The notes under the pieces were generated by a model. That model saw only the letters and a list, made by a program, of their open reading frames with translations, was not told where the DNA came from and searched no databases. DNA of 59,178 nt, taken from NCBI GenBank assembly GCA_022447825.1, contig JAKUTY010000001.1, positions 68,599 through 127,776 on the forward strand, written 5' to 3'. Shown here piece by piece: positions 38,775-54,593 of the stretch (the first letter of the stretch is position 1; every line of letters begins with the position of its first letter). Origin of the DNA: SAR202 cluster bacterium. GTDB lineage: Bacteria > Chloroflexota > Dehalococcoidia > Lucifugimonadales > UBA826. Both the position numbers and the translations under genes were made by a program.

Positions 38775-39038
38775 CTATATCAAAAGCTTACCCGCAAGCC
38801 ATTGAATTATATTGATAGCTATAATCGCCACTAAGGGAGCAAAATCGAACATTCCAGTTTTGGGTAACAAATTTCTTATAGGAATCAGGATCGGTTCCGT
38901 AATGGTATATAAAATTTTCAATATAGGAAAAAATAGCCCGCCAGGAACTACAGTAAACCAAGAAGATAACACTCTAAGTAATATAGCTACGTATAGTATC
39001 CAAGTTAATATGGAAATAAAATTATATAAAAGTAAAAT
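38775..39038 (-). CDS. YggT-family membrane protein; ATT start codon proposed
   Basis: Small integral membrane protein with two hydrophobic segments. The family signature ITEPILIPIRNLLPKTGMFDFAP is clear. The first ATG/GTG/TTG in frame is GTG 38972, giving 65 residues. That start falls inside the conserved YggT N-terminal helix, because the upstream frame reads SILTWILYVAILLRVLSSW. The upstream frame has only one sensible start: ATT 39038, whose A is the last base of the proC stop codon (TAATT). It lies 8 bases after GGAG. From there the product is 87 residues, a usual family length. YggT is linked to division and turgor or osmotic stress and is commonly next to proC, as here. Confidence 0.8.
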   Translation of the reverse strand: MLLLYNFISILTWILYVAILLRVLSSWFTVVPGGLFFPILKILYTITEPILIPIRNLLPKTGMFDFAPLVAIIAINIIQWLAGKLLI

Positions 39039-52548: not shown

Positions 52549-53457
52549 TTAATTTTTAGTGATTCGAACTGCTATCCAATCGTTCTCTGTCAAAAGTTCA
52601 TCTATTTGATATTTGAATTTTTTTATTTGAGTTTCTACTTGATGAAATGAATCTTTTAAAATGCCTGAAAGTATCATGTTACCGGACTTTTCCAAATTAA
52701 AATCCAATTTCTCAAATGTTTCTAAAATTATCTTTGTAGAAATATTAGCTATTACTAAATTAAATTTGATATTTGGAATAAGAGATTGGTTAAACGTGTC
52801 ATTTATTAACATGATTTTCTCTTGAACATTATTTTTCAATATATTCTCATTAGCCGATTTAACTGCATTAGGTTCTATTTCAATTCCTACGCATTTTTCA
52901 GCCCCTAATTTAGTTGCTGCTATTGATAAAATCCCTGAACCGCTTCCAAAATCCAAAACAACACTGTTATCCTTAATCACTTTCTCTAACAACTCTAAAC
53001 ACATCCTAGTGGTTGGATGATGACCTGTGCCAAAAGCCATTCCAGGATCTAAATAAATCAATTTTCTAACTTGATTGGTATCAACGTCTCTCCAAGACGG
53101 GCAAATTAATATTTTCTCACCCACAGGAATTGGGAAAAAATAGTCTTTCCATTTATTTTGCCAATCAACATCATTAATCTCTCTAGTTTCTAATTCACCT
53201 ATAGGGCATAAAATTGAGACTAATTTCAATCCAACTTCAACGTTAGCCAATCTTTCTTGAGTTGTATTATCAATAGGAAGATAAGTTCGAATAGTCACAA
53301 ACTTTGGAACAGGAGGCTTTTCACCATCATCAGGATTATAACCCGAAGGTGATTCAACCGCTGTACCTCCTTCTCCATATCTATAAAAAACATGTGAAAG
53401 AGGTTCTACAAATTCAGGAGGACATTCTAAACTGATTTCTAGCCATTTCTTGGAAAT
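52549..53457 (-). CDS. prmA: Ribosomal protein L11 methyltransferase; ATT start codon proposed
   Basis: SAM-dependent trimethylation of ribosomal protein L11. The SAM domain has YLDPGMAFGTGHHPTTRMCLE, VLDFGSGSGILSIAATKLGA and NLVIANISTKIILE. The first ATG/GTG/TTG in frame is GTG 53298 (249 residues). In-frame upstream translation reads KKWLEISLECPPEFVEPLSH, then the family N-terminal domain. None of the 53 codons before GTG 53298 is ATG, GTG or TTG. The earliest sensible start is ATT 53457, 9 bases after AAGG at the dnaJ stop. That gives 302 residues, the normal PrmA length. Confidence 0.85.
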   Translation of the reverse strand: MSKKWLEISLECPPEFVEPLSHVFYRYGEGGTAVESPSGYNPDDGEKPPVPKFVTIRTYLPIDNTTQERLANVEVGLKLVSILCPIGELETREINDVDWQNKWKDYFFPIPVGEKILICPSWRDVDTNQVRKLIYLDPGMAFGTGHHPTTRMCLELLEKVIKDNSVVLDFGSGSGILSIAATKLGAEKCVGIEIEPNAVKSANENILKNNVQEKIMLINDTFNQSLIPNIKFNLVIANISTKIILETFEKLDFNLEKSGNMILSGILKDSFHQVETQIKKFKYQIDELLTENDWIAVRITKN

Positions 53458-53468
53458 ATTATTATGCC

Positions 53469-54593
53469 TTAACGCTGTTTAAATCTTCGGAAAAAATTTT
53501 TGTCATCTTTATTCTCATTCTCAGCTTCAGGAAGAGAATCCAACAGTTTTTTAAATAATTTCTTTTGTTCATCAGATAATTTTCTTGGTGTCTGAACTTC
53601 AACTGTCACCAATTGATCCCCTCTTCTAGTTCCTCGTAATTGTGCAACACCTTTTCCTTTTAATCTAAACATTTGTAAGCTTTGAGTCCCAGCAGGAATC
53701 TGCAATTCTTCTAAACCGTCTAATGTAGGTACAGATAAATTAGTTCCTAAAGCTGCCTGAGCAATATTTATTGGTAACTTATAAAGAATATTAATTCCGT
53801 CACGAATAAAATAATCATGGTCTTTAATCTTAAAGGCTACGTACAAATCCCCAGGAGGACCTCCGTTGGCTCCATGTTCTCCTTCACCTGTCAGTCTAAT
53901 TTGGGTATCTTCCTCAATTCCTGGAGGAATAGTTACTGCAAGTTTACGTTTATTGCGTTCTTTACCTTGACCTCTACATTGAGTACATGGCGTGGTAATT
54001 AATTTTCCTTCTCCACGGCAAGTAGAACAATCTCCCACCTGAACAACTTGTCCAAATAAACTTTGCTGTGCTCTTCTAACTTGGCCTGTTCCATTACAAG
54101 AAGAACAAGACGTAATGGGACTTCCAGGTTCATTTTTTGCGCCCCTACACCTAGAACAAGATTCTGTTCTATTTATATCAAATTCTTTCTCAGTACCGAA
54201 TACTGCATCCTCAAAAGTTATAGGCATAGTATATTGAAGATCAGAACCTCTTCTTGCAGAACTTCTACTTCTCGTTCCACCACCAAATCCGGAACCACCA
54301 AAAAATGAATCAAAAATATCACCAAACCCAGAAACATCACCAAATCCCCCGCCCATACCCGAATTGTTTATTCCAGAATGTCCAAATCTATCATATTGAG
54401 CTCTTTTATCTTTATCTGAAAGAATTTGATAGGCCTCATTCACTTCTTTGAATTTTTCTTCAGCCCCTTCATCTTTATTTCGATCAGGATGGTATTGGAG
54501 AGCTAATTTTCTAAAAGCTTTTTTTAATTCTTCATCATTAGCGTTTCTGGAAACGCCTAAAACTTCATAATAATCTCTTTTTTGAGTAGTCAT
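53469..54593 (-). CDS. dnaJ: Chaperone protein DnaJ
   Basis: Hsp40 co-chaperone of DnaK. The 374-residue protein has a J domain with HPD at about residue 35 ([14 protein letters not shown]), a Gly/Phe-rich region (about 75-110), four CxxCxGxG-type zinc repeats ([32 protein letters not shown]), two C-terminal beta domains and a charged C-terminal tail. It heads the dnaJ-prmA-rsmE set; no dnaK or grpE is within the window. Confidence 0.96.

Follow-up and report, generated by a model that had tools for sequence, protein, structure and literature searches.

A probable AUU start codon for prmA in a genus of SAR202 bacteria, and its place among other AUH-start genes

Non-canonical start codons in bacteria

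Non-canonical start codons are few in bacteria and have mostly been found one by one. The gene infC, whose product IF3 feeds back on its own synthesis, starts at AUU in Escherichia coli and at AUC or AUA in other bacteria. Starts at AUU, AUC or AUA (AUH) are already a known kind, with infC, pcnB and, by deduction, lepA as examples (PMC1780047). Here we compare these genes with prmA, which encodes the ribosomal protein L11 methyltransferase, in a 59,178-nucleotide stretch of the genome of a SAR202 cluster bacterium, an uncultured member of the Chloroflexota (contig JAKUTY010000001.1; the whole stretch is called the window below), where a putative ATT start codon lies at 53455–53457 on the minus strand.

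The infC and prmA cases are alike in that an AUH start has been kept over evolution and the reading frame extends upstream of the first canonical codon, but infC autoregulates through IF3, whereas no such loop is evident for prmA, the gene of an L11 methyltransferase; in addition, infC of this family uses AUA where E. coli infC uses AUU. The E. coli gene pcnB, whose AUU start is cited in PMC1780047, is like prmA a housekeeping gene with such a start, and as cited there AUU limits its expression; the evidence for pcnB is experimental, whereas that for prmA is purely comparative. An AUU start was deduced for lepA of Borrelia burgdorferi and Bacillus licheniformis (PMC1780047) on the ground that, as with prmA, it makes a translation-related protein full-length again, although the gene and the phyla are different. 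Staphylococcus aureus cvfC1 and ccpN start at AUU and AUA, respectively (PMC13009471), and resemble prmA as conserved, non-canonical AUH starts in one bacterial group; their initiation was, however, mapped experimentally and they have extended Shine-Dalgarno (SD) motifs (PMC13009471), whereas the prmA SD is weak (AAGG). Finally, sigR of Streptomyces has a GTC start that is repressed by IF3 (PMC5472188), and shares with prmA a non-canonical start kept across a genus, but IF3 repression has been demonstrated for sigR alone of the two. The open papers covered by our search (subscription papers lay outside it) report no AUU start of prmA, and a scan of viral contigs found no relatives. By the comparisons given below, prmA appears to join the known class of AUH-start genes as a new member.

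The prmA frame and its start region

With ATT 53457 as its first codon, prmA occupies positions 52549–53457 of the minus strand and encodes a protein of 302 amino acids. Its frame is open from just after a TAA at 53481–53479 to the stop codon at 52549–52551, and its 5′ codons read ACA GCG TTA AGG CAT AAT AAT ATT TCC AAG AAA TGG CTA. The ATT-start protein matches TIGR00406, the curated equivalog model for PrmA, with 210.7 bits (cut-off 183.15) from residue 5 to 295, or profile positions 1–288, and matches PF06325 with 259 bits. Unless translation begins before GTG 53298 (53296–53298), the first canonical start codon of this frame, the N-terminal part of the PrmA family is missing. A preliminary description of this DNA had taken 53299–53457 to be 53 codons that encode the normal N-terminal domain of PrmA, contain no canonical start and, with ATT, give the normal 302-residue length. 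These coordinates are correct and the reading holds: no ATG, GTG or TTG occurs in frame in that segment, and the TIGR00406 match is full-length, above its cut-off and begins at residue 5.

We compared three species genomes of the genus, all of them draft assemblies: G000 (the window genome), G001 and G002 (an uncultured Chloroflexi MAG); the PrmA proteins of G001 and G002 are 83% and 91% identical to the window copy, respectively. Codons 2–53 (53299–53454), which encode the peptide WLEISLECPPEFVEPLSHVFYR among others, have dN/dS values of 0.05 (G000–G002), 0.09 (G000–G001) and 0.13 (G002–G001), and the corresponding values for the remainder of prmA are 0.13, 0.08 and 0.09. Since purifying selection on codons 2–53 equals that on the rest of the gene, these codons are evidently translated, and they encode the normal N-terminal domain. 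This bears directly on whether translation might begin at GTG 53298 and give a 249-residue protein that lacks this domain. Although no canonical start precedes GTG 53298 in the frame, the selection just described acts on the codons upstream of it, and by eye no SD precedes it. Moreover, the congeners do not share it as a start: it reads TTA in G001, where a protein begun at the first canonical codon would be about 85 residues shorter. The comparison of congeners thus leads us to reject a start at GTG 53298 as highly improbable.

The start region in all three congeners has the form AAT ATT xxx xxx AAA TGG, and ATT 53457 is the only near-cognate codon that fits and the sole one conserved there. 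Internal ATT codons are in general conserved at 67% (G001) and 80% (G002), and retention of ATT across three genomes is by itself modest, mildly informative evidence; the case for the putative ATT start is its combination of coding sequence that is conserved ahead of every canonical start with the lack of another candidate. The AAGG that was earlier noted 9 bases before the ATT lies at 53467–53470, its spacing is confirmed and it is kept in all three congeners; as an SD it is weak, at −2.6 kcal/mol against the anti-SD. Because all the compared genomes are drafts, one might suppose that a sequencing or assembly error conceals a true ATG, and the preliminary description had named ATG in relatives, with the ATT of this copy an error, as an outcome that would overturn its claim. 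Alignment excludes this outcome, as an identical ATT is present in three separate assemblies that differ at many nearby sites, and an error is therefore exceedingly unlikely.

In other genera of the family prmA starts at ATG, GTG or TTG, two codons downstream of the ATT position and directly before the codon for the K of KW (MKW...; N in G005). The three congeners have AAG, AAT and AAA at the codon aligned to that start, which rules it out as a start shared within this genus. Given the canonical starts two codons downstream in other genera, ATT appears to have replaced an ordinary prmA start in this genus, to which the AUU start is limited within the family. The prmA gene of G015 (genus g6) reads AAT ATT GAT ATG AAN TGG, in which ATT already stands two codons before the canonical ATG, and may represent a possible intermediate in the start shift. 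A tree of PrmA and LarB groups g1 with g3, and then with g6, with moderate support (0.86–0.88).

The dnaJ stop codon TAA (53469–53471, minus strand) overlaps the AAGG and lies 11 nt before the prmA ATT in another frame. Its nearness, and the presence of an out-of-frame ATG (53447, within AAATGG) near the prmA start, could suggest that PrmA is made by a frameshift from dnaJ or from that ATG. However, inspection by eye of the stretch from TAA 53481 to the dnaJ stop shows no slippery heptamer, ATG 53447 reads a mini-ORF whose length varies among the three species, and other genera possess their own canonical prmA start. The sequence does not support either route, and we find them very hard to credit.

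Probable initiation at AUU and the question of IF3 control

The comparison of three congeners and other genera supports well the earlier claim that prmA initiates at ATT. In this genus prmA is very probably translated from AUU at 53457 in place of a canonical start, by weak initiation that is probably coupled to dnaJ. The initiator tRNA of G002 has the normal GGGCTCATAACCC form and a normal anticodon stem, while this pattern was not found in G000 and G001, most likely owing to an assembly gap; CGGCTCATAACCG in the latter two genomes was read as an elongator tRNA-Met. An altered initiator tRNA was thus rejected as the cause because the intact G002 gene is normal, and AUU initiation presumably uses the normal tRNA, which would pair with the prmA AUU by a third-position mismatch, as in infC.

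Such initiation is probably weak, with AUU as start and only AAGG as SD. As the dnaJ stop is so close upstream and the prmA SD is weak, the most likely help is coupling to dnaJ termination, with ribosomes that finish dnaJ probably assisting initiation at prmA. The yield of PrmA per dnaJ mRNA would be low, and given the weak SD and the coupling, a low, dnaJ-linked PrmA output is our best guess. In genus g5 the dnaJ stop overlaps the TTG start of prmA (AATTGA).

The preliminary description had also raised a link between L11 methylation and initiation factor levels. Under such control, AUU would make prmA IF3-sensing, with high IF3 repressing and low IF3 relieving its translation, so that L11 methylation would follow the IF3 level, by analogy with infC and sigR. 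This would be an addition to the best explanation and not an exclusive alternative to it. The infC gene starts at ATA in all 15 family genomes in which it was identified, which makes discrimination by IF3 probable here, and IF3 repression of a non-canonical start outside infC has been demonstrated for sigR of Streptomyces (PMC5472188); control of prmA by IF3 is possible on these two grounds. Against it, the prmA AUU is restricted to one genus, its SD is weak, and several unrelated genes share AUH starts, which may reflect drift that a genome of 34% GC tolerates and not selected control; AUH starts on unrelated genes would fit drift as well as regulation. We therefore regard IF3 sensing by prmA as conceivable but unlikely, and prefer weak initiation, probably helped by dnaJ coupling, over IF3 control.

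AUH-start genes in the genus and the family

A scan for further AUH starts covered 567 kb of G000 (all of contig 1 and 20 other stretches, 41% of the genome), compared against 487 kb from G001 and 403 kb from G002. The filter was applied to 308 conserved, non-shadowed ORFs and required the conserved frame to extend 15 or more codons upstream of the first canonical start, and that upstream part to show low dN/dS and no fewer than three synonymous changes. Eight ORFs passed, and in six of them an SD precedes an ATH codon at the start position; these are the genes for PrmA, YggT, a PIP-synthase-like protein, a glycosyltransferase, LarB and a secreted protein. The other two were not counted among the AUH-start genes, as one is antisense to rplL and one continues its frame through an in-frame TGA. 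Thus, at least six genes (about 2% of conserved genes, 6/308), with infC in addition, appear to use AUU, AUC or AUA as their start codon in the scanned part of the genome. ATH codons have a frequency of 9% in G000, and the chance of ATH in six of six genes is about 2e-4 if the ATH may stand at any of three codon positions. This value is rough, and start sites other than that of prmA were partly assigned by eye. When codon classes were instead counted for enrichment under an SD threshold, ATH did not stand out, because every long upstream stretch offers many positions of all codon classes and prmA falls below the threshold; the filter described above is the cleaner of the two.

A second putative ATT-start gene in the window is yggT (38775–39038, minus strand; PF02325, 62.7 bits). 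Its ATT (39036–39038) is preceded by GGAG 8 nt upstream and is kept in 3/3 congeners, and no ATG, GTG or TTG occurs in the first 21 codons from it; the gene overlaps the end of proC, and other genera start yggT at TTG, GTG or ATG. The CDP-alcohol phosphatidyltransferase gene (G000:C4:9530–10141), whose product is PIP-synthase-like but below that model's cut-off, has ATT in all three genomes of the genus and ATG or TTG outside it. The starts of the glycosyltransferase gene (G000 C13:14293–15321) are ATC, ATC and ATA in the three congeners. The secreted protein (G000 C10:15323–15997) has a signal-peptide-like start (KTKTTFLILFF...), no Pfam or NCBIfam match, and an apparent ATC start in two genomes. 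Within the genus larB (G000 C1:5506–6258) begins at ATA, and the 16 genomes of the family all have either ATA or ATC, never ATG, GTG or TTG, at that place; the start lies behind an SD in most of them, mostly of the GGAG type.

The filtered ORF that continues through a TGA probably encodes a selenoprotein; it is a lipoprotein-like ORF on the plus strand (L084:8927–9412, G000:C34; ...LLFISPF(U)GTCVSEL...) whose in-frame TGA and frame are kept in 3/3 congeners. It has no Pfam match and, by our own reading, would carry a UxxC redox motif; SelB scores over its cut-off in two genomes of the genus and tRNA-Sec in three.

Nothing singles out prmA among the AUH-start genes, as those for yggT, larB, the PIP-synthase-like protein, the glycosyltransferase and the secreted protein appear alike. 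The set as a whole, with infC and larB family-wide and prmA and the other four at least in the genus, might respond together to IF3 and so form an IF3-controlled translational regulon read by the start codon alone, a reading that we consider decidedly unlikely. Less expected than the prmA start itself is that one genus has so many AUH-start genes and that larB has a non-canonical start across the family. Gene callers limited to ATG, GTG and TTG would truncate AUH-start proteins, and larB, with its AUA or AUC start throughout the family, would be a test case for IF3 control beyond infC.
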